A stretch of 22,051 nucleotides of DNA, from positions 1 to 22,051 of IMG/VR virus record IMGVR_UViG_3300010883_000567; one strand, 5' to 3'. The translations under genes were made by a program, and so were the position numbers. The notes under the pieces are model-generated. The model was not told where the DNA came from, did no database searches, and saw only the letters and a program-made list of their open reading frames with translations. Origin of the DNA: a virus. Below, one piece after another: positions 6,929 through 22,051 of the stretch. Numbering within the stretch: the stretch's first letter is position 1; each line of letters opens with the position of its first letter.

Positions 6929-7150
6929 TCACACTGTGCGCCAGAAGCGTACCCCCAAATTTCCACCTTCGATCCGTAGTCTTTGCTCGAGTTCCCAGTG
7001 GCTATCACAGAATATCTTGTTTACCTGCTTTATTGCCTCGCCGGTATTTATGCAGGGTACAAAGATGGAAGAACCGATAGCCATGTTCTCCCACCTAACT
7101 TCTATCATCACGCCATCTGGCGATAGATCATACGTTCTCAATACCTTCAT
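6929..7150 (-). CDS. 73-residue conserved-type phage protein of unknown function
   Basis: This small protein has the pattern V-R-W-E-x-M-A-x-G-S-S-x-F-V-P-C-I-N in its first half and LEQRLRIEGG-x-LGVRFWRT at its end. I recognise that pattern from other phage small proteins of unknown role; no domain name is secure. It is the last gene of the leftward operon and overlaps the end of the primase-helicase gene by 23 bases. The chosen ATG at 7150 lacks a good ribosome binding site. An internal ATG at 7084 (MAIGSS) has AGGTGG six bases upstream, but starting there would lose the VRW segment that relatives seem to have. Its position suggests a helper in replication or late shut-off, which is inference only. 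Confidence 0.7.
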   Translation of the reverse strand: MKVLRTYDLSPDGVMIEVRWENMAIGSSIFVPCINTGEAIKQVNKIFCDSHWELEQRLRIEGGNLGVRFWRTV

Positions 7151-9947: not shown

Positions 9948-9968
9948 TGGTCCACCCACTGCCTAAAC

Positions 9969-10002
9969 CATCACGGTGAGGAAATATGCCCGCACCGTGA
10001 TG
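9969..10002 (-). repeat. 10-bp perfect inverted repeat between SSB and primase-helicase genes
   Basis: CATCACGGTG at 9969-9978 pairs exactly with CACCGTGATG at 9993-10002 across 14 bases. It fills most of the gap between the SSB stop (10028) and the primase-helicase start (9947), one of the few real gaps in the operon. No T run follows on the - strand, so it is not a standard terminator. It could be an RNA processing or stability hairpin, or a protein binding site. Confidence 0.7.
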
Positions 10003-10027
10003 TAGTTCGATTACTTTGACGATGTCC

Positions 10028-10711
10028 TTAGTCTTCGTCATCCCAGTCATCAATAATCGAACTCAAATCACTGTCATCCGTTGGCGGTGCAGATGCAGTC
10101 TTCTTAACAACCTTTGTAGGTTCCTTAATAGGTTTCTCAACAGGCTCTTCAACCACTACTGTAAACGGGTTATCCTCCTTAGAATTGTATCCGTCTTCGG
10201 CAGCAAAGGGGTTCGATTGCTTACGCTCTGCAAGTTTAAGAACCTGCACTGCTTGCAATCTTAGGGAACAACCTGCGCCCATCGAACCGCTGTAAGGAAT
10301 ACCCTTGATTGCGATGTTTACTATACTACCGCTAGTCAATTGGAAATCATCAGGCAGTGCATTAGTCTTTGCATCAAACTGCGATGGCTTCCTAGTCTTA
10401 TCGCCGTTGTATGCGCCCTTCAAATTAGCCTTGTGGGACCACATCCCATCATCTGTTTTCTTGAATGGGTTTTTAATCTCAGGCCAATTCTTTTTCTTTT
10501 TCCTTTTCTTTTCCTCGGCATAAGTTGTTTTCATGTATGACCACAACGCCTTGGCTGTTACATCGTCCATGATAAAGTTTACCGAGTACTCAGCACCATC
10601 ATCCGTTGGCCCACACGGTACGGAGCGTTGTTCCGTGCTATCGTATCTGTATGTCTTATCCAGCTTGGGGTACATGGCGGTTATTTTTTTAACTACATAT
10701 TGCTCAGACAT
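10028..10711 (-). CDS. ssDNA-binding protein (DUF2815 / Enc34-like OB fold)
   Basis: This 227-residue protein likely coats single-stranded DNA at the fork. The segment A-x-x-IKGIPY-x-x-x-MGAGCSLRLQAVQVLK matches the core of the DUF2815 (phage Enc34 ssDNA-binding) family. A basic patch (EEKKRKKKKNWPEIKNPFKK) lies near residues 75-95. The protein ends in a strongly acidic tail (DDSDLSSIIDDWDDED), the hallmark of T7 gp2.5-like SSBs that contact replication partners. Unlike T7 gp2.5 it does not end in Phe, but a Trp lies four residues from the end. I chose ATG 10711 because AAGGAG sits seven bases upstream; the 12-residue upstream extension would run back into the preceding gene. It lies between the Cys-motif gene and the primase-helicase gene. 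Confidence 0.8.
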   Translation of the reverse strand: MSEQYVVKKITAMYPKLDKTYRYDSTEQRSVPCGPTDDGAEYSVNFIMDDVTAKALWSYMKTTYAEEKKRKKKKNWPEIKNPFKKTDDGMWSHKANLKGAYNGDKTRKPSQFDAKTNALPDDFQLTSGSIVNIAIKGIPYSGSMGAGCSLRLQAVQVLKLAERKQSNPFAAEDGYNSKEDNPFTVVVEEPVEKPIKEPTKVVKKTASAPPTDDSDLSSIIDDWDDED

Positions 10712-10721
10712 AAAAGTCTCC

Positions 10722-11399
10722 TTAATTTGCATTTGCGTCATAGACAAATCCGTCTACTTCCGCAAAGATTGACCCCCTTGAGGGCATTGACATTGATATA
10801 GCCTCTTTAGCTTCTTGGCTATCAGCCATTGAAGCCGCAAGACTCACTTCTTCTTCCCCAAGGGGACGTACTGCCTTGAAGAACAACTTGGGTACCGCAC
10901 TCCCCTGATCAAACGCGCATTCGGTAATCACGGATAGAGCAGGGGTGTTATGAGAATTTAGGTACTGCGCGTAGGCTTGCATAGGCATCTTGCCTTCCTT
11001 CGCTTTACCAAACAACGATGTTGCAGGTAATTGCAGTTGGTACACCTTGGTAAAGTCGTTCTCTAGTACCACGGCTAACCGTTGTGCAAAACGACACGCA
11101 CGTGACATACCTGATCCTGACCCCTTAATATTCTGAGGGCAGTCCATACAACGGTGGGCTTGGCGGTCTTCCTCCTTCACCTCTGGCGCAGGAGCACTAG
11201 TGTCTGCTGACCAACACGTAGGACGTGTCGGACTACTAGCATCATACTCCCCTGCATAATAAGAGCGAGAAATTTTAGCGGCGTTCACAATTATCACGTT
11301 CAATGCACCTTCATGCACCGCGTCTTGTTGACCGTTAATGTACTCACGAAACTTACTTCCGTTGATACTGATACGGCGGCGTTCACCTACGTTCTGCAT
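10722..11399 (-). CDS. phage protein with conserved Cys motif, partner of the SSB gene (unknown function)
   Basis: This 225-residue protein has a four-cysteine pattern: TCWS at 61-64, CMDC at 84-87, and RACR with C102, the last followed by FAQRLAVVLEND. The spacing C-x21-C-x2-C-x14-C suggests a zinc-binding loop. I have a sense of this CW-S-x-D...CxxCPxN...G-x-ACR...RLAVVL pattern recurring in phages next to ssDNA-binding genes, but I cannot attach a family name. No catalytic motif is visible. The start ATG at 11399 has GAGGAG seven bases upstream. The stop is 10 bases before the SSB start and the stretch between supplies the SSB ribosome site, so the two are probably made together. A role in DNA binding or recombination is inference. 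Confidence 0.72.
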   Translation of the reverse strand: MQNVGERRRISINGSKFREYINGQQDAVHEGALNVIIVNAAKISRSYYAGEYDASSPTRPTCWSADTSAPAPEVKEEDRQAHRCMDCPQNIKGSGSGMSRACRFAQRLAVVLENDFTKVYQLQLPATSLFGKAKEGKMPMQAYAQYLNSHNTPALSVITECAFDQGSAVPKLFFKAVRPLGEEEVSLAASMADSQEAKEAISMSMPSRGSIFAEVDGFVYDANAN

Positions 11400-11409
11400 C
11401 TGCTTCTCC

Positions 11410-11727
11410 TCACAAATCCTCGTCGGTATAACCTTGTCCTACTCCTGACTTGATGTCGGTTACTGCCGTGGTAGCTACTGCTGCTAATCCAGCAGCCGCT
11501 ATGTCTGCCTTGATGCCTAATGTAGAGGTACTGCTAGTAGGTTTGGGGGTATCTTTTTTGGTTAGGGCAACAGACACATCATCGATAGAGAAACGGTATG
11601 TGTTACCTACTTTTATGTATGTGTCTTTTGGTATGTGTACTTGGCGCACCCATGCTCGTATGGTCGAAACCGATACGGAAAAGTGCTTAGCCAACGCTTC
11701 GATTGGTACAAAAGGGCCATTCATCAT
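11410..11727 (-). CDS. small helix-turn-helix DNA-binding protein (MerR/excisionase-like)
   Basis: The first ~55 residues fit a MerR/excisionase-type HTH: FVPIEALAKHFSVSVSTIRAW supports the two helices, and a wing follows with GNTYRFSIDDV. The second half (Lys/Pro/Ser-Thr then Ala-rich, ending in an acidic YTDEDL) shows no domain. It could be a transcription regulator of this operon or a DNA-bending accessory protein; the sequence does not decide. The first ATG overlaps the preceding stop (ATGATGA), and GAGG lies five bases upstream of it; the second ATG three bases later is equally possible. It is a natural candidate to bind the repeated palindromes found further up the operon, though that link is untested. 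Confidence 0.75.
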   Translation of the reverse strand: MMNGPFVPIEALAKHFSVSVSTIRAWVRQVHIPKDTYIKVGNTYRFSIDDVSVALTKKDTPKPTSSTSTLGIKADIAAAGLAAVATTAVTDIKSGVGQGYTDEDL

Positions 11728-12122
11728 TTTTTCCTCACAGAAATTATATATTCAGAGTCTACGTTAAGTCCCATAGGGACAGTCTCAGGGTTTTCTTCAA
11801 GGAAAGTTTTTACATTAGTTTGGTTCAACCGCTTTTCCAGAAACTCAGGTACTTCATGCTCCATAACAAATTTGTGCATGGCTTCCCAATCACTGGTCCA
11901 ATAGCGAGTCTTCACCGAACGGTAGAAAAGTCCCTCTGAAGTCTTTACGCTCTCAAGCCCCTGCTCTTTGCAGTAGTCGAGTAGCGCGGCTTTGACCTTA
12001 TCCAGTTTCTGGTTAAGATCGGCTTCTTCTTTCTTATAGTCCGACGAAAGCTGGGCTTTCTTAGTTCGGATTTTTAAATAAACACGTGTCAGCTTCTCAG
12101 CTAACGTCCTATCCTCACTCAT
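11724..12122 (-). CDS. 132-residue phage protein with N-terminal coiled coil, unknown function
   Basis: The first ~60 residues are highly charged and helical (KIRTKKAQLSSDYKKEE then LNQKLDKVKAAL), a likely coiled coil. The rest has a compact pattern with YRSVKTRYWTSDWEAMHKFV, PEFLEKRLNQTNVKTFLEEN and SEYIISVRKK. This two-part layout resembles phage proteins I have seen that are loosely compared with Gam-like nuclease inhibitors, but I cannot confirm that. I chose ATG 12122 because AGGAG stands nine bases upstream; a GTG-type start seven codons earlier is less likely. It ends with ATGA overlap into the HTH gene and is preceded by a 64-base gap that may carry a promoter. Confidence 0.72.
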   Translation of the reverse strand: MSEDRTLAEKLTRVYLKIRTKKAQLSSDYKKEEADLNQKLDKVKAALLDYCKEQGLESVKTSEGLFYRSVKTRYWTSDWEAMHKFVMEHEVPEFLEKRLNQTNVKTFLEENPETVPMGLNVDSEYIISVRKK

Positions 12123-12142
12123 TTCTAGTTCTCCTAATCGCA

Positions 12143-12209
12143 CGACAAATTATGTCGGGAGATTCACTCTACTAACGTATAATACCTTAGTCAAGCAATT
12201 CTTTGTAAA
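12143..12209 (-). promoter_or_regulatory. candidate promoter and small hairpin upstream of the 132-residue gene
   Basis: On the - strand TTTACA (12204-12209) and TATTAT (12179-12184) each match the sigma70 boxes at five of six positions, but the spacer is 19 bases, longer than the usual 17. Downstream, CGACA (12143-12147) and TGTCG (12153-12157) form a 5-bp stem in the would-be leader. The -35 part lies inside the end of the helicase gene. This is one of the few gaps of over 50 bases in the operon, so an internal promoter is plausible but unproven. Confidence 0.3.
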
Positions 12210-13734
12210 GATCAATCATTTTTGTGTGTACGTCGATTCTGTTATCTAACAGTGTGTAAACACGTTTCTCTACGGCGGAACCTTGGAGCTGGACGATAGT
12301 ACACTTATGATCTTGTCCTGCCCTGTGAACACGCGCATTAGCTTGGGCGTAAGTCTCTAGCGAACTGGTAGGCCCCCACCATACAACTGTGTTAGCGGCT
12401 GTTAACGTGACACCGTGAGCGGCGGCTCGTGGTTGGATTACCAATACACGTGGGTTATCGGTCGTTTGAAATCGGTGAAATATATCTGTGCGTTTGGGTG
12501 CGGATACATCACCGCGAATAATCTCAGTAGTTATCCCATCGTCGAGTAGTTTGTTTGTAAGGATGTCTATCGTGTGCTTGAACGACACGAACACAAGCAC
12601 CTTCTTACTACTCTCGTCGATTACCTCACGTAAAACTTTGTATCGGTTCTTGATGTCAAACTCTAACGCCTCTCCGTTATCGGTGTATACCGCACCAGAA
12701 GATATTTGTAGGAGTTTACTCATGATAACGGCGGCGTTAGCCGCTGTGATCTCCTCACCTGCGGCCTGTAGTATCATCTTATTCTTTAGTTCCTTATAGT
12801 ATTTGGCCTGCTGGCGCGTGAGTTCTACCTCTCGCTTGACATATACCATAGGGGGTAAGTCCAGACACTCGTCTTTTGTGAACCTGATAGCATGTTGCAG
12901 TGCGTTATAGACTGTATCCGAAGCAGTTTCTTTCGGCTTCCATTTGAAGTTGGTGACTTTATACATCACCATATCCCGAAACGAACCAAAGAACCTCGGC
13001 ACGGCAGTGGGGTTGACTAGCTTAGCAATGCCGTAAGCGTCGAGGGGTGATTGAGCCGCAGGGGTACCTGTCATCATCCATAGCCAAGTCTTAGCGGCTA
13101 ACAGTTTATTCAGTGTCTTCCATCGTTTGGTCTGTGCGTTCTTATAATGGGTAGCCTCATCCACAATGATGCAGTCGAACCCACCCTTGGCTATGTCATC
13201 AGCTACAATCTCTACCCCATCATAGTTAATGATGACGTAATCGGAGCCTTGGTTGATGATTTTCCTACGCTTCTCTTTAGCACCGTAGGCCACATCGACC
13301 GTGCGGTGCATGGCAAAACTAAACAAGTCATTGCGCCACGCACTATCCATGATCGAAAGCGGGCAGATAACTAACACACGGTTTATCTTACCTTGGGTCA
13401 TTAGGAAATCGGATGCCCATATCGCAGAGGCAGTCTTGCCTGTGCCTTGCTCGTTAAAGCAAAATGCTCGACGGTTCATCGTAAGGAATGCGGCTGTGGT
13501 CTTCTGGTGTTCGTACGGTACGTACTGACCAGACCATTGATATTGACCTTCAATAGGTGAGGGTACGTTTATGTTTAACTTCTTGAGGGTATGCGCTTCG
13601 TCTACACCCCAGTTAACTACTACTTGATTGTTTGGTAGCTCTCGACTCTTCTCGACAACTTTAGTAACTTTGTTGGGGTTTTTTAAGCGCAGTAATAGCG
13701 CCTTGTTATCTAATATCTGCACTTCATTCTCCAT
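12187..13734 (-). CDS. SNF2-type superfamily 2 helicase/ATPase
   Basis: This 515-residue protein has the full SF2/SNF2 motif series: Q-like YEHQ at 74-77, Walker A NEQGTGKT at 94-101, motif II DEATH at 192-196, motif III TGTP at 222-225, motif V-like HGVTLTAAN at 440-448 and motif VI QANARVHRAGQ at 464-474. Length and motif order fit phage SWI2/SNF2 ATPases, which remodel or translocate on DNA in replication and recombination and are known to co-occur with VRR-NUC nucleases, as here. The ATG at 13734 lies within the 3' arm of a hairpin capped by GAAA, and the only ribosome-site-like string (AAGG) is in the loop and stem. Start access may therefore be controlled. A copy of the repeated palindrome lies just upstream. 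Confidence 0.9.
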   Translation of the reverse strand: MENEVQILDNKALLLRLKNPNKVTKVVEKSRELPNNQVVVNWGVDEAHTLKKLNINVPSPIEGQYQWSGQYVPYEHQKTTAAFLTMNRRAFCFNEQGTGKTASAIWASDFLMTQGKINRVLVICPLSIMDSAWRNDLFSFAMHRTVDVAYGAKEKRRKIINQGSDYVIINYDGVEIVADDIAKGGFDCIIVDEATHYKNAQTKRWKTLNKLLAAKTWLWMMTGTPAAQSPLDAYGIAKLVNPTAVPRFFGSFRDMVMYKVTNFKWKPKETASDTVYNALQHAIRFTKDECLDLPPMVYVKREVELTRQQAKYYKELKNKMILQAAGEEITAANAAVIMSKLLQISSGAVYTDNGEALEFDIKNRYKVLREVIDESSKKVLVFVSFKHTIDILTNKLLDDGITTEIIRGDVSAPKRTDIFHRFQTTDNPRVLVIQPRAAAHGVTLTAANTVVWWGPTSSLETYAQANARVHRAGQDHKCTIVQLQGSAVEKRVYTLLDNRIDVHTKMIDLYKELLD

Positions 13735-13756
13735 CGCAACGCCTTTCGGCGCGATG
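13732..13756 (-). promoter_or_regulatory. GAAA-tetraloop hairpin holding the helicase start codon
   Basis: On the - strand CATCG, CGCC, loop GAAA, GGCG, a TTG bulge and CGATG fold into a 9-bp stem with a GNRA loop. The helicase ATG (13734) is the last part of the stem and the weak AAGG is in the loop/stem, so folding would hide both. Confidence 0.55.
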
Positions 13757-13772
13757 TTAGTGTGGCACTAAC
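13756..13772. repeat. palindrome copy 1 (GTTAGTG-NNN-CACTAAC)
   Basis: This is a perfect 7-bp dyad with spacer TGG on the + strand. It begins at the base after the TAA stop of the basic HNH-like gene (read on the - strand) and abuts the hairpin over the helicase start. The same 17-bp design occurs at 19201 and 20316. It could be an operator or an RNA stem with a three-base loop. Confidence 0.85.
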
Positions 13773-14054
13773 TTATTTTTTTCGGCCTTTGCTCAAGGTT
13801 CCACCTGCCGTACGGTTACGCTTTCGGCTTTGTACTGTCACGCCGTTTCTGTTAGACCCCCCACGTGACAACGGTTTCTTGTGCGCTACGTCCTTGCCTT
13901 CTCTCTTGTCGGCTTTGCCGTTCTTGTTAGCGTCTTTACCTGTCTTATCCATCTTTCTTCTGGCACGCTGTCTTTCCATACGTGCCTTAAACTCTTTACT
14001 ATTGACAGGTTTGTTCTTTTGTTTCTTGCGATCTGCTTTATTTTTGTATGGCAT
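13773..14054 (-). CDS. small basic protein with degenerate HNH-like motif
   Basis: This 93-residue protein is very basic, with about 40% Lys plus Arg in its first half. Residues ~55-82 (DVAHKKPLSRGGSNRNGVTV then SRKRNR) resemble the core of HNH nucleases, in which DH-x-x-PLSKGG-x-N...R-x-NR supplies the metal and DNA-binding groups. Here the usual Asp-His reads Ala-His and there are no CxxC zinc pairs, so activity is doubtful. It could be a nuclease, a DNA-packing protein or a structural relic. It starts with TAATG overlap on the nuclease gene stop, with GGGAG upstream, and is followed directly by palindrome copy 1. Confidence 0.65.
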   Translation of the reverse strand: MPYKNKADRKKQKNKPVNSKEFKARMERQRARRKMDKTGKDANKNGKADKREGKDVAHKKPLSRGGSNRNGVTVQSRKRNRTAGGTLSKGRKK

Positions 14055-14725
14055 TAGTTACTCCCATTGTGAGCGCACACGGTGACAGGGCAGTGCCTTT
14101 TGCACAGCCCATTCGGTCGCGGATTCCAGACGTTTTTTTCAGCGGCGATCTTCATGGCTTCATACTTGCCTAGCCATTTATCCCATAAGGAGCTGATATC
14201 GTACTCATGGTACTTCGCTTTGATAAGATCATTACTAACAACAAACACTAGCCCCGCTTTAATTTTCTTTACTTCGGAGTAGTGTATAAAGACAGCTAGG
14301 GCCATTAGTTCTAACTGCCCCTTGTCTGCGTATCGTGCATTTTTACCCGTCTTGTAGTCGATGACCCATGCGGTTTCCCCCAACGTGTCAACAATTAGCA
14401 AATCAATGATCCCACGGAACCAAACATCTTTATCGTAGAACCCACATGCGATTAAGTTCTCGGTTATGCCTACCTTTTGTTCGCATAGTTTGACCCCTCG
14501 TTTGTTGTTAAGGGAATCAAGCATTGATTGGGCGTAGTCAAACCTCTTAGGTAGCGGAGTACCCAGCCCAATGTAATTTTCAGCGGCTTTGTGAAACTCG
14601 TTACCGTATAAAATCGCATTGGTTTGGACGAAAGGATACTCTTTAAGTATTTTCTCGTGGTAAAACTGTTTAGGGCATTGTTCAAATGCCTTAATCTTAC
14701 TGAACGACCACGGGGTTAAACTCAT
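14054..14725 (-). CDS. PD-(D/E)XK nuclease, RecB/Cas4-like, with probable Fe-S cysteines
   Basis: This 223-residue protein looks like a single-domain RecB-family nuclease (PDDEXK_1). The motifs are GNEFH at 41-45, RGIIDLL with D108, VIDYKTG with D123 and K125, and Q137 in KGQLELMA. Four cysteines match the Cas4/AddB layout: C17 near the N-terminus (FEQCPKQFYHEKI) and C208, C212, C217 at the C-terminus, so a 4Fe-4S cluster is likely. The spacing at the end is C-x3-C-x4-C, slightly different from the common C-x2-C-x5-C. It overlaps the polymerase stop by ATGA and ends with TAATG into the next gene. In phages such proteins usually process DNA ends in recombination. There is no CRISPR locus here. 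Confidence 0.87.
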   Translation of the reverse strand: MSLTPWSFSKIKAFEQCPKQFYHEKILKEYPFVQTNAILYGNEFHKAAENYIGLGTPLPKRFDYAQSMLDSLNNKRGVKLCEQKVGITENLIACGFYDKDVWFRGIIDLLIVDTLGETAWVIDYKTGKNARYADKGQLELMALAVFIHYSEVKKIKAGLVFVVSNDLIKAKYHEYDISSLWDKWLGKYEAMKIAAEKNVWNPRPNGLCKRHCPVTVCAHNGSN

Positions 14726-16551
14726 TCACAATCTCCGTAAGATTTTCCTAGTCCACTTTCACAATTGATAGGTAGACCTGTCGCCCAGTCGGGTGTCCAA
14801 CGCATACGCTCCTCAACAAACGCTCTCGATTCGATCACGTCCTCGTCTTTTACACATACGACGATGGAGTCATGCACCATTAACACAATGCGACATCTCT
14901 TGCTGATTTGTAACATTTGCTCCCCAATAATGCAACGCGCTACCGCTTGACATATATTCTCTGTTACCTTCCCACCATAAATTCGGGTGCGACCACGCCG
15001 TGTCTTGTAGCTATACTCAACACCACGCTCACCTTGTTCACCTAATAAGTCGTCATAACGTAACATCAAACCAGAAGGGAGAAGAATCCCACGTTCTGAT
15101 CCTAATACTTTCAACACACCTTCCCTACCTACCTGTATGGTATCGCCGTTCACCATGTACTTAATCATGTTTTGACAATCGCGCCATAGCTGATTGATTT
15201 TCCAATTAGCCTCACGATAGATATTGATAACTCGACGCGCTTCATCCAGCCCCATCTCAAACCCAAAGCCTTCTAACTGTTCTTGAAACCTAACTGCACC
15301 CATCCCGTAACCTGCGCCAAGGATGGTAGTCTTACCCACAAACCGTTGCTCTTTAGTTATTTCCTTCTCGGGAACACCATAGATGCGAGAAGCCATAACC
15401 TTATACACATCTTCGTTGTTAGCGAATGATCGAGTAATATCATTCTGACCTGCCAACCATGCAAGTACACGTGCTTCGATTTGCGAGCTGTCACAGTCAA
15501 TCAATGTGTGGCCTTCGGGTGCTAGGATGCTACGCTTTAACTTCTTAGCATTTAAACCACGGCTAGGTAGGTTCTGCATGTTGATCTTATCATCACCGCC
15601 CCATCGCCCAGTATGTGCGGCGTAGTACCTTACCGGAACCGGCAAAGTTCCACGTTTACCTATACCTATAAATCTCTGAGTACGTGTTTCCTCAAGGGTA
15701 CTTTTCGTGCCTAGACGTGCGGCTACTGCCGCTTGCACCCTGTCATCCTCATGGGCAGCTAGAGCCTTAAACCCTTCGTCGGTCTTGGCGAACGCGAATG
15801 TTTCTTTGCCTGTACGTAAACTTATTTTCATAGGCGGCTTTACGCCTAGACCCTCAAGCAGTGTGGCAAACTTAGGATTAGACATAAGGTCTTCCTTAGA
15901 TACACCTGCATCCTCAAGTAGTTGGTCTTTACGTTCTCGCGTGTCTTCAAGGTGCTGTTCAAGCAACCCAATGTCCAACTCCAAGAACGGTTCAGTAAAC
16001 ATACGTAGCGTCATGTCTATTATCATAAGTTCTTGTTTAGGAAAGCCTTTCTTTAGAAAGATGTTGAAGAGTTTGTATGTTAACTCGACATCATTGATAC
16101 AGTAGTCCCCGTACAGCGCCAAGTCTTCTTCGGAGAAATCGGCTCGACGTTTGCCTATCGCATTTAAGACTTCGGTCCCCTTAGTCCCAATCTGGTATCG
16201 TTCAGATAACGCCCTGAGACTGCCGCCAACTTCCACCCCGTGTAAAGCACGGGCGATACACAGAGTATCGGTATACACGCGAGGATGAATATCAAACACC
16301 CAAGAGAGAATGGCACCATCAAACAAAGTGTTGTGAGCAAGAACCATGCTTTCTGCCCAGTTGAAGGTGTGTAAGTACTGTTTAAGTTGTTCACGTGTTC
16401 CACTTGCCCATTCAGTTCCTTCATTGTTCACCTTTATACCTACGCCGATCACCTCAAATTGGTGATCGCGTACGTACTCCTCAGTTGTTAACTTAGATAG
16501 GGAAAAATCCTTGTCGTAGTAGGTTTCAAAATCTATCGTGATTAAGTCCAT
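14722..16551 (-). CDS. family A DNA polymerase with 3'-5' exonuclease domain
   Basis: This replicative polymerase has, numbered from the GTG at 16554 (610 residues), exonuclease motifs DFE at 8-10, AHNTLFD with D79 and INDVELTY with D155. Polymerase motifs are HTGRWGG at 314-320, motif A DCDSSQIEAR (D355), motif B RFVGK...Y with R404, K408 and Y416, and motif C VHDS at 560-563. The residue four after K408, equivalent to E. coli F762, is Leu412. Motif C ends in Ser where Pol I has Glu883. I prefer ATG 16551, which shares an A with the upstream stop (TGATG), over the GTG one codon earlier. Length fits T7-like phage polymerases with no 5' nuclease domain. Its operon neighbours are the DUF3310 gene upstream and the RecB-like nuclease gene downstream. 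Confidence 0.95.
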   Translation of the reverse strand: MDLITIDFETYYDKDFSLSKLTTEEYVRDHQFEVIGVGIKVNNEGTEWASGTREQLKQYLHTFNWAESMVLAHNTLFDGAILSWVFDIHPRVYTDTLCIARALHGVEVGGSLRALSERYQIGTKGTEVLNAIGKRRADFSEEDLALYGDYCINDVELTYKLFNIFLKKGFPKQELMIIDMTLRMFTEPFLELDIGLLEQHLEDTRERKDQLLEDAGVSKEDLMSNPKFATLLEGLGVKPPMKISLRTGKETFAFAKTDEGFKALAAHEDDRVQAAVAARLGTKSTLEETRTQRFIGIGKRGTLPVPVRYYAAHTGRWGGDDKINMQNLPSRGLNAKKLKRSILAPEGHTLIDCDSSQIEARVLAWLAGQNDITRSFANNEDVYKVMASRIYGVPEKEITKEQRFVGKTTILGAGYGMGAVRFQEQLEGFGFEMGLDEARRVINIYREANWKINQLWRDCQNMIKYMVNGDTIQVGREGVLKVLGSERGILLPSGLMLRYDDLLGEQGERGVEYSYKTRRGRTRIYGGKVTENICQAVARCIIGEQMLQISKRCRIVLMVHDSIVVCVKDEDVIESRAFVEERMRWTPDWATGLPINCESGLGKSYGDCE

Positions 16552-16973
16552 CACCTCACCTCTAACAACTTCTGCATGTAATGACCTGCTTTGTCCAAGT
16601 CATTGGTGTTCTTTTCTCTGGCAAGATACTTAATGATGTTGCCCTTCAAGAACCCAACGAACTCTTCATTAGTCATCCACGCTTCTATTGCCGCCCAAGG
16701 CTCGACGGATAAAGCCACGTAATGTTGTCCACCAACCTGTCTTTGGTTGGCGGCTTGCGGCTTTTTTCTAGTGCTTTTCGCTTCCTCCTCTACGACAAAC
16801 ACTGCTGTCGGCGGTACGATCTTCCGCATTAACTTGTAAGTATACCCATACGATACGCCCGTAGCCTTTGCGACCTGTGCAGGAGTAGCTGCTTTGTTAT
16901 TAACTAGATACGCCCGTACCTTATCGGCCTTGCGGGGTTGTTTCTTGGGGGATTGTTTCTTCTTGGTAATCAT
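16551..16973 (-). CDS. winged-helix + DUF3310 (SaV-like) protein
   Basis: This 140-residue protein has a basic N-terminus (1-20), an HTH-like segment at ~28-52 (TPAQVAKATGVSYGYTYKLM), a linker with Lys/Arg, and a C-terminal DUF3310/SaV-like domain at ~78-138. The latter shows VGGQHY, IEAWM, FLKGNIIKYLAR and DLDKAGHYMQKL. DUF3310 occurs in many phages and includes, as far as I recall, the T7 gp1.7 nucleotide kinase, so a role in nucleotide metabolism is possible. The added DNA-binding segment is notable and suggests a regulatory job. The ATG has AGGAG six bases upstream. Two CTCGTACG repeats lie just before the ribosome site. The stop overlaps the polymerase start. Confidence 0.8.
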   Translation of the reverse strand: MITKKKQSPKKQPRKADKVRAYLVNNKAATPAQVAKATGVSYGYTYKLMRKIVPPTAVFVVEEEAKSTRKKPQAANQRQVGGQHYVALSVEPWAAIEAWMTNEEFVGFLKGNIIKYLAREKNTNDLDKAGHYMQKLLEVR

Positions 16974-16988
16974 GTCGTTCTCCTAATG

Positions 16989-17027
16989 CTCGTACGATAT
17001 AACAAGTGACCACAAGACCCTCGTACG
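16989..17027. repeat. paired CTCGTACG repeats upstream of the HTH-DUF3310 gene
   Basis: CTCGTACG occurs at 16989-16996 and 17020-17027, 31 bases apart (about three helical turns), in the same orientation. Each contains the palindrome CGTACG. They lie in the 78-base gap before a gene with a DNA-binding segment, so an autoregulatory operator pair is possible. Confidence 0.5.
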
Positions 17028-17051
17028 GTTAAGGTCCGGCGGTTAGGTTGA

Positions 17052-17204
17052 TTACTCGGGGGATTGTGCGGCTTGCTTTCTTGCGTACTTCTCACCCCAC
17101 GAAAAGAACAACCGCATGGGTGAATACTTCGGAGCAATCAGATAAGCCTCGACGCAATGATTTGCGATAGCCCTCCATTCCGCTTTAGTTCGTTTCTTGC
17201 TCAT
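17052..17204 (-). CDS. 50-residue protein of unknown function
   Basis: A short open frame reads MSKKRTKAEWRAIANHC, continues with EAYLIAPKYSPMRLFFSWGE and ends in a Lys/Gln/Ala-rich tail. It begins with a very strong ribosome binding site, AGGAGG, six bases before ATG, which argues that it is translated. It is basic, has one Cys and no membrane segment. The following stop leaves a 78-base gap before the DUF3310 gene. I do not recognise a family. Confidence 0.72.
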   Translation of the reverse strand: MSKKRTKAEWRAIANHCVEAYLIAPKYSPMRLFFSWGEKYARKQAAQSPE

Positions 17205-17236
17205 GCTGTCCTCCTAAACGGGTTCGTCGGTCTCAC

Positions 17237-17398
17237 TTAAATGTCTCCCTGTAAAAACTCAAAATACTTTTGGGCAGACGCTACGACAGCGTCCGCGTCT
17301 TCTTCACGCAGCCGATGCCGCACGGCATTAGCGAGTGCTGCTACTCGATTTTGCCGCTCTACTTCTGTTTCACTTCGGTTTTGTTGTTCTACTTTCAT
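17237..17398 (-). CDS. 53-residue charged helical protein of unknown function
   Basis: The frame starts MKVEQQNRSETEVERQNRVA, continues with Ala- and Arg-rich helix and DADAVVASAQKYFEFL, and stops at TAA. GGAGAAG lies upstream of the ATG, right after a GC-rich hairpin. The amphipathic, fully charged pattern suggests a small helical bundle or adaptor. It is similar in style and size to the 54-residue protein at 20377-20541 (ME/TV...Q then Arg-rich), though not clearly related. No function is evident. Confidence 0.68.
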   Translation of the reverse strand: MKVEQQNRSETEVERQNRVAALANAVRHRLREEDADAVVASAQKYFEFLQGDI

Positions 17399-17412
17399 TT
17401 TCACTTCTCCAT

Positions 17413-17427
17413 GCGGGAGCGTCCCGC
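17413..17427. repeat. 6-bp GC-rich hairpin before the 53-residue gene
   Basis: GCGGGA at 17413-17418 pairs with TCCCGC at 17422-17427 around GCG. No T run follows on either strand, so termination is unlikely. It sits a few bases before the ribosome site of the 53-residue gene and could affect its translation or protect the message. Confidence 0.5.
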
Positions 17428-17442
17428 GTTATAATAGGTAAC

Positions 17443-17565
17443 TCACATTATTCCTCGCATAAAGTAGGACCAGATGCCCACGAGGGTAACTATGCCTATG
17501 CTCACAAGCACGGCGACGGCTATACAACAAACCGTTTTCACAATGATTTCTAGCGGGGAACCCAC
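17443..17565 (-). CDS. 40-residue single-pass membrane protein
   Basis: From a GTG at 17565 (AGGA five bases upstream) the protein reads GSPLEIIVKT, then a hydrophobic helix with CCIAVAVLVSIGIVTLVGIW, and a short tail YFMRGIM. It overlaps the end of the upstream membrane-protein gene by 16 bases in another frame. Its core LEI...C-IAVAVLVSIG is very similar to the LEI...C-LAVTVLVSIG of that gene, so the two look like duplicates. Tiny membrane proteins in phages can be holins, spanins or superinfection factors; nothing here decides. An ORF extending further upstream in this frame is Arg/His-rich and unlikely to be protein. Confidence 0.55.
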   Translation of the reverse strand: MGSPLEIIVKTVCCIAVAVLVSIGIVTLVGIWSYFMRGIM

Positions 17566-17774
17566 GTATTTCCTGCCGCCTGCGTTCCGTTGACACACCC
17601 TATTACGTTTCCGTCTGCGATTACGACGATGCCATCGATGCAGTGGGATTCTGCTATTTTGACATCGTCTTCCGTGGAAAGGGTGCCTATGCTTACAAGC
17701 ACGGTGACTGCCAGACCAAGCACGGTGACTGCCAGACAAAAAACTGCGATTTCTAGCTTGGCTCTTTCTATCAC
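17550..17774 (-). CDS. 74-residue small membrane protein with internal 7-residue repeat
   Basis: GTG at 17774 overlaps the preceding TGA (GTGA), with no clear ribosome site, so translation is probably coupled. The N-terminus has two positive charges (MIERAKLE) and then a hydrophobic helix from ~9 to 32. The helix contains a perfect 7-residue tandem duplication (LAVTVLG, LAVTVLV) from a 21-bp repeat. The remaining ~40 residues are polar with two Cys (SHCIDGIV, VIGCVNG) that could form a disulfide if outside the membrane. It could be a signal-anchored periplasmic protein or a holin-like factor. I see no family. Confidence 0.62.
   Translation of the reverse strand: MIERAKLEIAVFCLAVTVLGLAVTVLVSIGTLSTEDDVKIAESHCIDGIVVIADGNVIGCVNGTQAAGNTWVPR
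17696..17737. repeat. 21-bp perfect tandem duplication in the small membrane-protein gene
   Basis: The 21-bp units 17696-17716 and 17717-17737 are identical and in frame, doubling seven residues of the membrane helix. A diverged third version lies at about 17500-17525 in the 40-residue gene (ACAAGCACGGCGACGGCTAT against ACAAGCACGGTGACTGCCAG). Confidence 0.85.
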
Positions 17775-18328
17775 TTGATCAGCCCAGCTTCATACATTCT
17801 CTGTAGCGTGTCGGAATGAATAATTGAACATTGAGATTCTTTCATGAATTCACTTTCTTCTTTTTCAGTTAGTTGACCACGTCCGTGAAACATAGCGACC
17901 CAGTGGGTTGCGGTTGCAAAATCTGCGGCAGAATCGAACCAAAAGCCAGCTTTGTCCACACACCCATAGAACTTTTCACATCCCCGGAATCGCTTAAAAG
18001 TTTCCCAAGGTTTTCTAGAAACGTTTTTTGTTGGGCGATCCGCGACTAATTTTGCAGTCGATACCAGTTCCTTTTTCATTTCCCCCTCCGTTTTTTTCCA
18101 ATCCTGCCCAGCGCGATATGCTGCGTAACCCAAAGTAGTTCTGAATGCTGGGTCGGCAGGGTTGTGGCAAACAGTTGGGCGATTGTTGTATCCATCCCAG
18201 AAGGCAGCAGAGTGGCCAGAGCCGCGTTTTTGAGAACCGTTTGGCAATATCCAAATTTCGCGGCGAGCAGAATCTGTACAGGAAGCGTACATTTTCCGCA
18301 TCAATTCGTTTCTGAATGGGTTGCTCAT
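17771..18328 (-). CDS. 185-residue phage protein of unknown function, RMF-like segment
   Basis: The N-terminal half contains HSAAFWDGYN (39-48) and LGYAAYRAGQDWKK (66-79). The second pattern, AYRAG with aromatic neighbours, is like the A-x-x-AG repeats of ribosome modulation factor, seen in several phage small proteins, but the match is short. The C-terminal half has FYGCVDKAGFWFDSAADF, a Lys/Glu-rich segment, and six Cys overall without a clear metal pattern. It starts with an ATGA overlap on the preceding gene and ends with GTGA into the membrane-protein gene. No enzyme motif is visible. Confidence 0.7.
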   Translation of the reverse strand: MSNPFRNELMRKMYASCTDSARREIWILPNGSQKRGSGHSAAFWDGYNNRPTVCHNPADPAFRTTLGYAAYRAGQDWKKTEGEMKKELVSTAKLVADRPTKNVSRKPWETFKRFRGCEKFYGCVDKAGFWFDSAADFATATHWVAMFHGRGQLTEKEESEFMKESQCSIIHSDTLQRMYEAGLIK

Positions 18329-18573
18329 TTAAGGTCAAATCCTTCATCAGCGCCCCACTGAACCGCGAGTTTGTTGTAAATTTTACGTTGTTGCTTGATC
18401 TTTGCGGCAGCTTTGGCGGCTGTTAGGTACTCCTCGTATCCGTTCCTACCTAGACGCGTTTGTGCGTCTTCAATGCTCTGTGTAGCAAGCAGATAAATCG
18501 TCTGTAGAATTTCTTCGCGTGCCATCTCTCTTGGCGTAGGTTTGTACTCCCCAGTTGGCATAGTAAGAATCAT
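18325..18573 (-). CDS. 82-residue helical protein of unknown function
   Basis: This reads MILTMPTGEYKPTPREMARE and continues as charged helices with NGYEEYLTAAKAAAKIKQQRK. I chose ATG 18573, which overlaps the VRR-NUC stop as ATGA and has GAGGG eight bases before, over an ATG 20 codons earlier that would overlap the nuclease gene by 64 bases. It ends as ATGA into the 185-residue gene. There are no Cys, membrane helix or known motif. Confidence 0.7.
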   Translation of the reverse strand: MILTMPTGEYKPTPREMAREEILQTIYLLATQSIEDAQTRLGRNGYEEYLTAAKAAAKIKQQRKIYNKLAVQWGADEGFDLK

Positions 18574-18986
18574 TTTTGTTTCCCTCGGTTTCTTGTGCGC
18601 TCCAATTGGATTAGCGATCTCCGCGAAGCCCATAGTCTGGCGTCGTTCAATTTCAAGGCAGGTGAGTCTCCAAAATCTAACTCTAACTGTCGTGGGTCGT
18701 GGTGCTTACCGCCAATGTAGACCAACACGTCATCTATATTGTCTTCGTTAATGACAAGACTTATGCCATCGTTAGCTTTTATATCAGATAAATTCTTTTC
18801 TTGCAGGGGAGTTGGTTTGTTTCTACCTGCCTTACATTCTATACCAAAGAACTTACCCTCGTAGCATCCGATAATGTCAGGAACGCCACTCTTACCGTAA
18901 CCTCCGGTAACCGGGTAGAAGTAATAGGCTCCTAACGTCTTTAGGCGCGCCGCTACTTTCTTCTTAACTTTCGCTTCTGGTGTCAT
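18570..18986 (-). CDS. VRR-NUC domain nuclease
   Basis: This 138-residue protein fits the compact phage form of the VRR-NUC family (PD-(D/E)XK fold). The motifs are GYGKSGVPD with D37, FFGIECKAG with E50 and K52, then PTPLQEKNLSDIK with Gln62, and NDGISLVI, the usual last strand. A C-terminal extension of ~45 residues, rich in Arg, is beyond the domain. Standalone VRR-NUC proteins have been shown to act on branched DNA such as Holliday junctions, and the family is known to accompany phage SNF2 ATPases; one is encoded at 12187-13734. ATG 18986 has AGGAG six bases upstream. The start overlaps the zinc-ribbon gene by 23 bases. Confidence 0.88.
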   Translation of the reverse strand: MTPEAKVKKKVAARLKTLGAYYFYPVTGGYGKSGVPDIIGCYEGKFFGIECKAGRNKPTPLQEKNLSDIKANDGISLVINEDNIDDVLVYIGGKHHDPRQLELDFGDSPALKLNDARLWASRRSLIQLERTRNRGKQK

Positions 18987-19140
18987 CCCGTTCTCCTGTG
19001 TTGTCTACATCAGTAACCTTTCCGCTACACTGTGTACACTTACGCGTATTGGGGTCTTCTGTTTGCATCAAGGGTTGCATACACCACGGGCACAAACCCT
19101 CAGATAATCTTTTTTCGATTTCCCCTCGTTCATTAGTCAT
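18964..19140 (-). CDS. 58-residue zinc-ribbon protein
   Basis: This short gene lies in what otherwise looks like a gap. It starts MTNERGEIEK, has two CxxC knuckles (CPWC at 17-20 and CTQC at 35-38) separated by 14 residues, and ends in a charged tail. The pattern is a classic zinc ribbon, which would bind DNA, RNA or a protein partner. GAGGGG stands six bases before the ATG. It overlaps the VRR-NUC gene by 23 bases, so the two are likely co-translated and perhaps work together. It is preceded by a strong hairpin and palindrome copy 2. Confidence 0.78.
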   Translation of the reverse strand: MTNERGEIEKRLSEGLCPWCMQPLMQTEDPNTRKCTQCSGKVTDVDNTGERDDTRSES

Positions 19141-19176
19141 GGATTTCCCCTCGGAACTGGTATCAAAATCAAAGTC

Positions 19177-19197
19177 GGGGGATGGCGAACCACCCCC
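19177..19197 (-). terminator. strong hairpin before the zinc-ribbon gene (possible attenuator)
   Basis: On the - strand GGGGG-TGG-TTCG-CCA-(T)-CCCCC makes an 8-bp stem with a one-base bulge and TTCG loop. It is followed by GACTTTGATTTTGAT, which is T-rich but interrupted. This could be a weak terminator or attenuator between the 88-residue gene and the zinc-ribbon/VRR-NUC pair, or a barrier to exonucleases. Confidence 0.45.
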
Positions 19198-19200
19198 CTT

Positions 19201-19217
19201 GTTAGTGCCGCACTAAC
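19201..19217. repeat. palindrome copy 2 (GTTAGTG-NNN-CACTAAC)
   Basis: This perfect 7-bp dyad with spacer CCG starts one base after the stop of the 88-residue gene (read on the - strand) and lies three bases from the hairpin at 19177-19197. Its flank ATC is on the opposite side compared with copies 1 and 3, so it is inverted relative to them. Confidence 0.85.
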
Positions 19218-19218
19218 A

Positions 19219-19485
19219 TCACACACGGAATATCCAGTAAACATTATTATCAATCCGTCTGCCTATCCCTTCGACCTCACTAGTTGGCTTGTCCAGAGGG
19301 GTCATCATCAGTAGGGCAACCTTTTCTTGCATCCACAAAGGTAGGTCATCTACTGAAGGGTACTCTCCACTGACCGCGCTGTCAACTTCCATGCCGATAC
19401 ATGACACCTCGACAGCGTTGGTGTGTGGATTTACGTAAACGCGGTATATGTTATCATCATGTGGTAAGTCGTTATCGCACGACAT
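19219..19485 (-). CDS. 88-residue phage protein of unknown function
   Basis: I start this at ATG 19485 (MSCDNDLPHD), which overlaps the end of the 295-residue gene by 14 bases. GGAGGG lies eight bases upstream. A longer open frame exists but its upstream part is antisense-like and overlaps the 295-residue gene. The protein has IYRVYVNP, SVDDLPLWMQEKVALL and EVEGIGRRI-x-x-NVYWIF, a pattern I recognise from other phages without a function. It is acidic, soluble and has two Cys. The stop is immediately followed by palindrome copy 2. Confidence 0.75.
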   Translation of the reverse strand: MSCDNDLPHDDNIYRVYVNPHTNAVEVSCIGMEVDSAVSGEYPSVDDLPLWMQEKVALLMMTPLDKPTSEVEGIGRRIDNNVYWIFRV

Positions 19486-20359
19486 AGAACATACCCTCCC
19501 CCGCAGAGAAACCAACATCATCAACGTAATCATTGGCTTGCAGGATATTGAGTACAGAAAGTTTCTGCATGATATCTTCGGGTAACGTATCCGCTGTGTA
19601 GCGTTCTGCATCATCACTGATCTCTGTGTGGTAATTACTCTCAGCTTTGTCGATGCTGACCACATCAAACACCTGCTGATTCCTACGCTCGTATACTCGT
19701 ACAAACCACATTGGCACGGTGCGTTCTTTCAATCTATTCAGTTCATTTCGCTTAACAAAGAAGTCAGTAAGGTGATCCCCAAACGTAGCGTCAATAAAAT
19801 TGTGGTTACTGTTTAGCAGGTGCTGTAATTCATTGAGTAGGGAAGACCCCTTGTTGGTCTCTGCGGAATACAGGCTTGACCCAACGTCGAGCACGCTGCC
19901 ACGTATCTCGGTGAACTCGGTCCTTGCCTTCGCCTTAATATCATCTATTGCACTGACTACGTCTCTCATACGTGTACCTGCTAGTTCTTGCGGGGACATC
20001 ATACGTATAAACTTCTTAGCATTACGTACTGCCACATCAAAGTTGGTGGACATCTTCATTTTGTATTGGTCGCTATAATCAGAGTACTTACGGTTCGTAA
20101 TCGTACGTGCTTGCACCACATACATGGGCGTACCATCACCACCATCTCGGTAGTCACCAAAACCTACCCACCCTAGTACGCAGGGGCAATCATCTCGGTA
20201 TATCCAGTAGCTTTTACCGGATCTTGGGTACTTCTTTACACGCAACTCTTTACATACTCGCTCGGCAAAGGGTGTAATGTATTCGCCCCACTCCGTGCTG
20301 ATTGTCGCTGTTGATGTTAGTGCCCCACTAACAAGTTTCTGTTTTTCGTATCTAGCCAT
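19472..20359 (-). CDS. 295-residue phage protein of unknown function
   Basis: The N-terminal third has YWIYRDDCPCVLGWVGFGDY, then a middle helical region (FIRMMSPQELAGTRMRDVVS, charged), and a C-terminal part with MWFVRVYERRNQQVFDVVSI and GEGMFYVVR. No enzyme motif stands out; the CPC pair could bind metal. I have seen similar proteins beside phage VWA/DUF2201 genes, and here it lies downstream of such a gene with one tiny gene between. ATG 20359 has AGGAG seven bases upstream. Palindrome copy 3 is within codons ~10-15, so any binding there could affect early elongation or transcription. Confidence 0.75.
   Translation of the reverse strand: MARYEKQKLVSGALTSTATISTEWGEYITPFAERVCKELRVKKYPRSGKSYWIYRDDCPCVLGWVGFGDYRDGGDGTPMYVVQARTITNRKYSDYSDQYKMKMSTNFDVAVRNAKKFIRMMSPQELAGTRMRDVVSAIDDIKAKARTEFTEIRGSVLDVGSSLYSAETNKGSSLLNELQHLLNSNHNFIDATFGDHLTDFFVKRNELNRLKERTVPMWFVRVYERRNQQVFDVVSIDKAESNYHTEISDDAERYTADTLPEDIMQKLSVLNILQANDYVDDVGFSAGEGMFYVVR
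20316..20332. repeat. palindrome copy 3 (GTTAGTG-NNN-CACTAAC), inside coding sequence
   Basis: This perfect 7-bp dyad with spacer CCC (+ strand) lies 28-44 bases inside the 295-residue gene, where it encodes part of LVSGALT. Extended by its flanks, it matches copy 2 (inverted) at nearly every base over about 24 positions. Confidence 0.85.
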
Positions 20360-20376
20360 TGTCGTTCTCCTTAAAC

Positions 20377-20541
20377 TTAGCCGTTTCTGATTTTGTTGAA
20401 CGCATCATGTACTTGTTGCGCGCGTCTCTTCATTGCCATACGTGCCTCGGATGTCTCCTCTGCCTCCGCACGTGTCTCTAACTGTTGCACCCTATACGCT
20501 ACAGTTTCTTCCATTAGCTTTAATGCGTATTGGTATTCCAT
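20377..20541 (-). CDS. 54-residue charged helical protein of unknown function
   Basis: This frame fills the gap between the VWA and 295-residue genes: MEYQYALKLMEETVAYRVQQ, then Glu/Ala/Arg-rich helix and ending FNKIRNG. ATG 20541 is one base after the VWA stop, with GAGAG as a modest ribosome site inside that gene's last codons, so translation is probably coupled. It looks like one long amphipathic helix, perhaps a coiled coil. I do not recognise it. Confidence 0.7.
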   Translation of the reverse strand: MEYQYALKLMEETVAYRVQQLETRAEAEETSEARMAMKRRAQQVHDAFNKIRNG

Positions 20542-20542
20542 G

Positions 20543-21805
20543 TTACATCTCTCTTGATGTTATGTTTACGTGCTTACCTGTATCGGGCTTTGCATTTTTG
20601 TTATCTAAGATGCACCATAGCACAGGGCAAGACCATTGACCCCATGACCCACCAAGGTACCCATCGGTGAGAACAATCGCGGCTTGTGGCTTGACACCAT
20701 GCTCGGTGAGGTAGTCGGTAACGCACTCAACATTAGTGCCACCACCACCCTTGGGCTTGGTAGTCTGCACCAAGTCGTCTAGCTGGTGCATGTCATACTT
20801 CTCGTCCTGACACACACGTGTGTCCCAATAGAGTAAGCGGATATGGTCGGGGTGTACCGTGTCACAGATAGCTTTAATCTCGGACATAAACGCGGTGAGT
20901 TCGACCTGACCTATAGAGCCTGACGTATCCACTGCAATCACCAGTTCACCCACCTGCTCACTGATACCGCTGGGCATATAATAACCTGATGACACGTAAC
21001 GTCTGTTCGGTCGTTGCCATGTCGAGTAGTCACTACCTGCGCATGTGGTCTGTATAAACTCACGCAATACCTCACGCCAATCTATCTGCGGGGTTAGCAA
21101 ATCCTCAAGGGCGCGATCACCACCTGACCCCAACTTACCTGCGATCAACGCACCCTGACGTATTGCCTCGTCAATATCACGTGCCAGTTCACGATTCTCA
21201 TCTGGTGTAAGTTCGGCAGCACCGTCCCAGTCATGGCTGTCGAAACCTTGTGGTGAGTCGTTATCACCTGACCCATCATCTGCAGAGTTGTCGTCCCCTA
21301 TAGCGGTGTTTTCGTCACCAGTGGTGCCACCTGATCCCTCGTCGCCATCTTGCGGTGCGCCGTTATCACGTAGGTCAATAAAGACTGCGGCACCATCCCA
21401 GTCACGGTACTTGGCATCGATATACCCACCTTCGGGCATGGCTGCCCAACCATCTCGGTTGTCATCTGCAATCTTGACGTTGATCACATAGTCGCACGCT
21501 TGGTTGGCAAGCTGAGCATCTTGGTCGTACAGATGTCGCCACGTGGTGAGATGTCGGTATAACTTGTGATAGCACTCATGCAGCACAAGGAACCGTAGTT
21601 CTGCATCAGTGAGCGAGTCAACGAAGTCTCGCCCATACATCTCGTCACGTCCGTTGGTACATGCCGTTGGTATGTTGCCCACCACCGAACGATCACCGAT
21701 CATCAGGACACCTGCGAGGGCAACGTATTTAGGGTTGCCCATGATGTCAACGACAGCCTTGGACAGTCGTTGCTCTGGGGTAAGTTGTTTACCTATAGCT
21801 AACAT
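20543..21805 (-). CDS. VWA-like protein with N-terminal HExxH metallopeptidase domain (DUF2201-like)
   Basis: This 420-residue protein joins two parts. The first (1-140) has a zinc-peptidase motif HECYH at 76-80 within LRFLVLHECYHKLYRH, as in the DUF2201 N-terminal domain. An acidic Asp/Gly/Ser linker follows (~150-195). The second (~285-415) is a VWA-like domain with MIDAS residues DTSGS at 293-297, GGGGTN at 353-358 and LTDG with D381. Such proteins usually work with a MoxR-type AAA+ ATPase as a remodelling pair. No MoxR gene is in the window, but it could lie beyond the right edge. Why a phage replication operon carries it is unknown. ATG 21805 has AGGGG eight bases upstream, formed partly from the preceding stop. 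Confidence 0.85.
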   Translation of the reverse strand: MLAIGKQLTPEQRLSKAVVDIMGNPKYVALAGVLMIGDRSVVGNIPTACTNGRDEMYGRDFVDSLTDAELRFLVLHECYHKLYRHLTTWRHLYDQDAQLANQACDYVINVKIADDNRDGWAAMPEGGYIDAKYRDWDGAAVFIDLRDNGAPQDGDEGSGGTTGDENTAIGDDNSADDGSGDNDSPQGFDSHDWDGAAELTPDENRELARDIDEAIRQGALIAGKLGSGGDRALEDLLTPQIDWREVLREFIQTTCAGSDYSTWQRPNRRYVSSGYYMPSGISEQVGELVIAVDTSGSIGQVELTAFMSEIKAICDTVHPDHIRLLYWDTRVCQDEKYDMHQLDDLVQTTKPKGGGGTNVECVTDYLTEHGVKPQAAIVLTDGYLGGSWGQWSCPVLWCILDNKNAKPDTGKHVNITSREM

Positions 21806-21814
21806 AGTGTTCCC

Positions 21815-22051
21815 CTATTTCTTGTCGGCGGCGAACATGTAGTTATTGTCCATAGCCCATTGAGTAAACTTCTTATTGGTCATCACGACCTTGCGGTGTG
21901 CATACTTCTCGGCACTACACCCATTGGCGAACATGCCCTGCGCTTCCTTGTCGAGGCGCACCATGTAGTCCATCCATGCGTCGATCCAGTCACCTCCTAT
22001 CGTGGACAATGTACGGTAAACAACCATACACACGGCGGCGGCACTGTCAGG
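21815..22051 (-). CDS. 3' part of a gene cut by the window edge, unknown function
   Basis: The frame is open to the last base: PDSAAAVCMVVYRTLSTIGG, continuing with DWIDAWMDYMVRLDKEAQGM and ending NNYMFAADKK. A GTG or ATG near the edge could be read as a start, but the reading frame continues upstream with sensible codons, so I treat it as partial. It is helical with two Cys in the visible part. It does not look like the end of a MoxR ATPase as far as I can tell. The stop is nine bases from the VWA gene start, so the two belong to one operon. Confidence 0.65.
   Translation of the reverse strand, partial: PDSAAAVCMVVYRTLSTIGGDWIDAWMDYMVRLDKEAQGMFANGCSAEKYAHRKVVMTNKKFTQWAMDNNYMFAADKK

Follow-up and report, generated by a model that had tools for sequence, protein, structure and literature searches.

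Dispersed, lineage-specific palindromes in the early genes of uncultured phages, and a candidate regulator family that changes with them

A small number of temperate phage groups are known to have operators dispersed along the genome. Among them are the Cluster A mycobacteriophages (L5, Bxb1), whose stoperators are the targets of the immunity repressor Rep (PMC6550527, PMC9283540). Like the palindromes described here, stoperators are numerous and lie dispersed, mostly away from promoters (a near-complete genome here has 5-13 sites, and many of them are found where genes begin), and their consensus is lineage-specific and tracks the divergence of the regulator, a co-variation that we find as well. 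However, stoperators are asymmetric 13-bp sites that are oriented with transcription and read by a monomeric repressor, whereas the sites here have perfect dyad symmetry. In Cluster A the bound regulator stops transcription elongation; here a roadblock would be the equivalent. The Cluster A phages are temperate and carry integration genes, whereas the integrase and resolvase families (PF00589 and PF00239) are absent from the 10 near-complete records searched, and the candidate regulator family, unlike Cluster A Rep, matches no library family.

A second comparison is with the Extended Start-Associated Sequences (ESAS) of Cluster K mycobacteriophages, for which the authors favour a DNA-binding protein (PMC3203893). 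Both are inverted repeats found just ahead of the start codons of non-structural genes (with a minority of sites within genes in our case), both have a consensus specific to the lineage or subcluster, and in both RNA pairing is unsupported. The ESAS differ in having imperfect 17-bp arms around a spacer of 4-13 bp, whereas the arms here are exact and 6-9 bp long; an adjoining 13-bp SAS, GGGATAGGAGCCC, at the start codon is a Cluster K feature; and here a candidate protein can be named and some sites fall inside genes. The SPBRE sites of the Bacillus prophage SPbeta, which are bound by MrpR (PMC10516654), are also repeated sites that were first found by sequence in many intergenic places of one phage, and their binder is a phage master regulator with an unusual fold. 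However, SPBRE lie in the promoter regions of a temperate phage and MrpR resembles a tyrosine recombinase, whereas the candidate described here is small, all-helical and without a fold match. In size and dyad symmetry the palindrome also resembles lambda-type operators, which are 17 bp long and bound by an HTH repressor; the lambda operators are found at two promoters, whereas the sites here are dispersed and their candidate binder has no recognised HTH repressor family. Judged by the sequence features tested, the system belongs with the dispersed phage operators and falls outside both the Cluster A stoperators and the Cluster K ESAS. Among the papers covered by a literature search, none reports this motif.

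Palindromes in the window and at orthologous positions

The window, that is, the whole stretch of DNA analysed, is a 22-kb fragment and the complete virus record of 22,051 bases. It contains three exact copies of GTTAGTG-N3-CACTAAC at 13756, 19201 and 20316 (Table 1), as an earlier note on this DNA had reported, and no others even when three mismatches are allowed. The same note had dismissed chance, in agreement with the 8.9e-5 exact copies expected in the window from base composition; for any 7-3-7 palindrome family with three copies the expectation is 2e-9 per spacer length. The inverted match between copies 2 and 3 that had been described amounts to 92% over 24 nt, and the assignment of the copies to one operon fits the minus-strand orientation of the genes from 7128 to 22051. 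The ATC said to follow one arm is present in the three window copies but is not conserved: the flanks vary in relatives, where the conserved flank is a T/A immediately outside the arms. Copy 1 lies 21 nt ahead of the first ATG of the SNF2 helicase gene, and copy 3 sits in the sole open frame, where it is read V-S-G-A-L-T. We read the gene nearest the window end in Table 1 as encoding a VWA-type protein from its homologue annotated in Pag-Yong1. Between copy 1 and the helicase gene, directly before the latter, there is a small hairpin (GCGCC-GAAA-GGCGT, 13735-13752, minus strand), which close relatives keep with varying loops. Positions 30-6812 of the plus strand encode a 2260-aa protein that matches DarB-like and other large phage proteins without an assigned function.

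Table 1. Features of the window (positions 1 to 22,051) and palindromes of related lineages
Feature	Coordinates	Strand	Remarks
HTH_17 (AlpA/Xis/MerR-like) gene	11410..11727	-	first candidate binder of the earlier note
SNF2-type helicase gene	12187..13734	-	downstream of copy 1
Palindrome copy 1, GTTAGTG TGG CACTAAC on +	13756..13772		abuts stop of ORF 13773-14054(-)
DUF3310 protein gene	16551..16973	-	weak N-terminal TrmB-like match; second candidate of the earlier note
Second conserved element, GATACCAGTT	19155..19164	-	between copy 2 and start of ORF 18964-19140(-)
GC-rich hairpin, GGGGGGTGG-TTCG-CCATCCCCC	19177..19198	-	after copy 2; kept in relatives, stem and loop altered
Palindrome copy 2, GTTAGTG CCG CACTAAC on +	19201..19217		1 nt past stop of ORF 19219-19482(-)
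295-aa gene, function unassigned	19472..20359	-	copy 3 near its start
Palindrome copy 3, GTTAGTG CCC CACTAAC on +	20316..20332		within ORF 19472-20359(-), 27 nt past its ATG
VWA-type protein gene (as read), PHROG 1314	20543..21805	-	adjoins gene cut by window end
G016 palindrome, GGTAGTCC-N2			8 copies
G017 palindrome, GTTAGGG-N3
G018 palindrome, TGTATACATATGTATACA			5 copies
G019 palindrome, GTTATAACA-N2			6 copies
G020 palindrome, TAGCCA-N1			10 copies

An exact-motif scan over 2.9 million viral contigs yielded up to nine motif copies in 14 kb among the matches listed. Several of the motif-bearing records are 59-67 kb long, and the phage group as a whole has about 58-67 kb; the genomes compared are mostly metagenome contigs, and the nearest isolates found, Pseudomonas phage Rollin and Rhizobium phage RHph_TM3_14A, show 23-41% protein identity. 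The relatives, which the earlier note had suggested searching, carry the motif with its arms kept at matching positions. Counted by eye from the list of contexts, the arms are exact in 18 of 19 distinct contexts at the position of copy 1 (at least 80% helicase identity), in 11 of 12 at copy 2 (at least 80% identity) and in 8/8 at copy 3 (at least 73% identity). The arms of orthologous sites are exact, whereas the spacer and the neighbouring DNA drift. Over 1.9 Mb the spacer measures 3 nt at 359 sites and 4 nt at 47; a length of 5 is rare and others hardly ever occur.

The gene order of the relatives is that of the window, with the large virion gene followed by primase, HTH, helicase, PolA, endonuclease and metabolism genes. 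Each near-complete relative has 5-13 copies of the palindrome, clustered in the early/replication module, where they mark gene starts or occupy the upstream control region, and, in the 59-67 kb relatives, outside the structural half. Across seven near-complete genomes the sites extend over 6-23% of the record, except in G006, where they take up 43%. Of 124 dereplicated, oriented sites, 46 are followed after 10-24 nt by a start codon that has a sequence resembling a Shine-Dalgarno, the gene starts having been predicted with a simple script; the rest lie about 20 nt within a gene or elsewhere. The G007 sites at 19691 and 27563 are inside genes and distant from starts.

These positions bear on the possibility that the protein reading the sites starts replication or organises the early DNA rather than controlling transcription. 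The location in the replication module would suit such a role, as would the distance of 40-110 bp between some of the sites in a non-coding control region. However, the placement follows gene starts across many kb, unlike one origin cluster, and the sites lie close to the gene of the candidate regulator introduced below, as in autoregulation. We consider it quite unlikely that these are replication or DNA-organising sites.

DNA half-site or RNA hairpin

The earlier note had listed an RNA hairpin as an alternative. In that case the palindrome would form a stem-loop close to where ribosomes bind the mRNA, serving as a translational operator or as a stability or processing element, and the many sites located 10-25 nt ahead of starts preceded by a Shine-Dalgarno sequence, or just past a start codon, are consistent with this, as is the swapping of 3- and 4-nt spacers between orthologous sites. 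However, the RNA stem is broken in 19 of 20 dereplicated single-mismatch sites, with pairing kept in one, which contradicts the alternative. The favoured change places the same half-site letter in either arm: GTTAGTG has become GTTAGGG in 13 of the 20 sites, eight times in one arm and five times in the other. Furthermore, conservation extends to the sequence of the stem, beyond mere pairing, and several sites lie within non-coding control regions.

Spacer positions 8 and 10 seem complementary when all sites in multi-copy contigs are pooled (91/177 sites paired, compared to 58.5 expected overall), but the excess is gone in a comparison within genomes, where 94.8 are expected. True covariation of the two positions is ruled out; the excess arises because each phage favours its own letter at half-site position 8, and this per-genome preference accounts for the pairing. 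Such a per-phage position 8 is the pattern that a homodimer would give. Taken with this preference, the broken stems make an RNA hairpin very unlikely in our view. The 7-bp stem and 3-nt loop also brought to mind the hairpin promoters of N4-type virion RNA polymerases, a candidate that was set aside after a scan of one large virion protein, that of the window, showed no polymerase family.

Lineage-specific palindromes and the candidate regulator

Relatives without GTTAGTG were gathered by motif-independent scans using two neighbouring genes. They have other half-sites (GTTAGGG, GGTAGTCC, TAGCCA, TGTATACAT and GTTATAACA), which are dispersed in the same module, and G006 has GTTAGC sites alongside GTTAGT sites. 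Across the lineages the arms are exact and 6-9 bp long, the dyad symmetry is perfect, and the site spans 16-20 bp in most lineages. Of more distant phages, RHph_TM3_14A contains 12 GTTACC-N6 palindromes and Planktothrix phage Pag-Yong1 contains 18 GGTTCAG-N1 palindromes, often 22-23 nt ahead of annotated starts; no dispersed palindrome above chance was found in Rollin, the Pelagibacter phages HTVC027P and HTVC023P, 023Pt_psg01 or DSL-LC04. The 12 sites of RHph_TM3_14A (L125) read GTTACC-N6-GGTAAC, two palindromes of this phage reach almost to a start codon, and copies of TTACCT-N4-AGGTAA occur also in its structural region. In Pag-Yong1 (L195, 8816-47583), GTTCA-N3-TGAAC is present 22 times, in many instances 22-23 nt before an annotated start codon.

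A natural swap of palindrome type is seen between G018 and G019: the early region that was compared is for the most part 86-99% identical, yet five orthologous sites read TGTATACATATGTATACA in G018 and GTTATAACA-NN-TGTTATAAC in G019, and at three of these five switched sites 59/60 bases of the downstream flank are identical. The sole strongly diverged block of the compared early region (25.7-27.2 kb of G018, at 51-78%) is the control block with the candidate regulator gene. This gene has 195-196 codons; the first ~138 residues differ between the two phages, and the last ~57 are near-identical. The sites of both phages have a 4-nt gap between 7-bp half-sites. A sixth G018 site, at 32212, is a relic that is still of the G019 type, as if the switch in G018 were recent. 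The stretch at 27.4-29.9 kb of G018 is somewhat more diverged than the one that follows, and block recombination could have imported several of the G018 sites together; even with such partial block recombination, regulator and sites would still belong together.

The family of this candidate regulator was collected by iterated profile search, and the collection was scanned with regulator alignment A4, alignment A3 being too divergent. Members are present in the palindrome-bearing genomes of the group where the control region is present, with a more diverged member in G002; no homologue was found in G005, whose record is broken at that region. Relatives carry the regulator gene in a control region located further upstream than the VWA-type gene (a close relative has the gene at L014:3473-3985, minus strand), and the window genome's own copy would lie beyond position 22051. 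A palindrome is present in 79 of 80 loci picked by the regulator protein alone, and lies within 500 bp of the regulator gene in 66/67 loci, at a median of 132 bp. The helix variant QQQIGA accompanies GTTAGTG-type sites, and regulators with QQQIGS[KQ].KDLR have GTTAGGG sites in all five dereplicated cases (5/5). In the regulator tree the GTTAGGG members fall within one well-supported group of six, which includes one GTTAGTG member; this amounts to one or two switches rather than five independent ones, and the association between helix and half-site comes from few lineages and is in part shared descent. The regulators of G003 and G006 are 15-25% identical to that of L014, yet GTTAGTG-type sites are kept.

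AF2 models of two distant members (pLDDT 91 and 90) are all-helical with the same helix order; in both, a less ordered linker joins the N-terminal domain to a C-terminal hairpin. Comparisons to Pfam, PHROG and PDB folds gave no significant match, the best PHROG being a weak one to 'HTH DNA binding protein' (E 0.0038), and the best viral structure match of the model is an uncharacterised phage protein. Since no known DNA-binding fold matches the model, homology does not predict DNA binding by this family. Relatives of the regulator were found neither in isolate phages nor, in one scan with a single short pattern, in bacterial genomes. No homologue was detected in Pag-Yong1 and RHph_TM3_14A, though both carry dispersed palindromes; the first early gene of Pag-Yong1 and two others were ruled out as homologues on comparison.

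The set of sites, their positions, the behaviour of the half-sites and their change together with one gene are read directly from the genomes. We think it probable that the palindromes are dispersed operators of a phage-encoded homodimeric regulator, which binds at early-gene starts and roadblocks transcription in the manner of stoperators, with site and protein changing together between lineages. Each subunit of the homodimer would recognise one arm of 7-9 bp as its half-site in the DNA. The candidate is the phage's own all-helical protein of 170-258 aa, encoded in the control region that precedes the early operon. Its predicted targets are the sites close to the regulator gene itself and those where many early genes begin; most of these targets would lie past the main early promoter. 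The N-terminal domain would make the dimer's contact with the palindromes. The C-terminal helical hairpin may provide dimerisation, and it is predicted to set the spacing of the half-sites, given that G018 and G019 share the C-terminus and the 4-nt gap. Once bound, the regulator would block or slow transcription, so that early expression is lowered or timed.

In G018 and G001, simple pattern scans found good sigma-70 promoter matches upstream of sites where the early operon begins, which makes occlusion of the promoter less likely than a roadblock before the genes. The promoter matches also weigh against the opposite proposal, that the sites serve to activate expression of the early genes rather than to block it. 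The sites do precede genes, as activator sites would; however, some are within a gene, and in the few control regions scanned there is no fixed spacing to a -35/-10 promoter. Activation is, in our judgement, unlikely.

Under the preferred reading, of operators for a roadblocking regulator, the joint change of site and protein would give each phage a private regulatory specificity. Specificity private to a lineage could mean that the signals of one phage go unread by its relatives, or that relatives are excluded, although a role in insulation or exclusion is speculative. Each lineage has its own palindromes, apparently read by a fast-changing regulator, in the way that rival phages have separate repressor systems. 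We give about an even chance to the wider proposal that this is a new family of DNA-reading regulators without a known fold, which together with ~5-13 dispersed symmetric operators per genome confers an immunity-like private specificity on apparently non-lysogenic uncultured phages, and which close relatives exchange together with its sites as one cassette. Dispersed operators would then extend from a small number of temperate groups to a large uncultured one whose near-complete records showed no integrase; there, the regulator would be diverging fast, with a natural swap of specificity between close relatives. The system makes it testable how the specificity of a phage regulator and its many sites changes jointly, and for what reason phages that look lytic maintain private systems resembling repressors; the protein family would be a module for DNA binding that lies outside the known folds and comes with a ready panel of protein/site pairs.

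The HTH_17 protein and a second element

The earlier note had interpreted the palindrome as the operator of a dimeric repressor and had named two HTH proteins of the window (Table 1) as possible binders. The half-site statistics, the mismatch spectrum and the concerted switch with one gene argue for a dimeric DNA-binding operator, but neither of the named proteins is supported as the binder. The second is a DUF3310 protein with a weak N-terminal TrmB-like match. If the HTH_17 protein were the binder, its presence in all GTTAGTG-type near-complete genomes tested would be expected, as would its absence from Rollin, which is without a dispersed palindrome above chance. However, G018 and G019 have a near-identical HTH with the same recognition helix despite completely different palindromes; the protein was not found in the palindrome-bearing RHph_TM3_14A and Pag-Yong1; and its distribution follows a second element, GANRCCAGTT, instead. 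We find it extremely doubtful that the HTH_17 protein reads the palindromes, and the binder is likely the product of another gene, outside the window.

The element GANRCCAGTT, unlike the palindrome, is common to lineages with differing palindromes. Most near-complete records with the HTH_17 protein contain 4-7 copies, compared to 0-1 in records without it, and the element may be the target of this protein. In addition to the copy listed in Table 1, it is found at 18060-18069 on the plus strand of the window and in relatives at L158:1600-1760 and L330:6930-7130; often a short inverted repeat comes next, and the element adjoins palindromes or follows terminators. In the window and its relatives the HTH_17 protein mostly has an acidic tip, DEDL/DDDV, similar to that of the window's gp2.5-type single-strand binding protein, which ends in WDDED; this suggests contact with the replication machinery.
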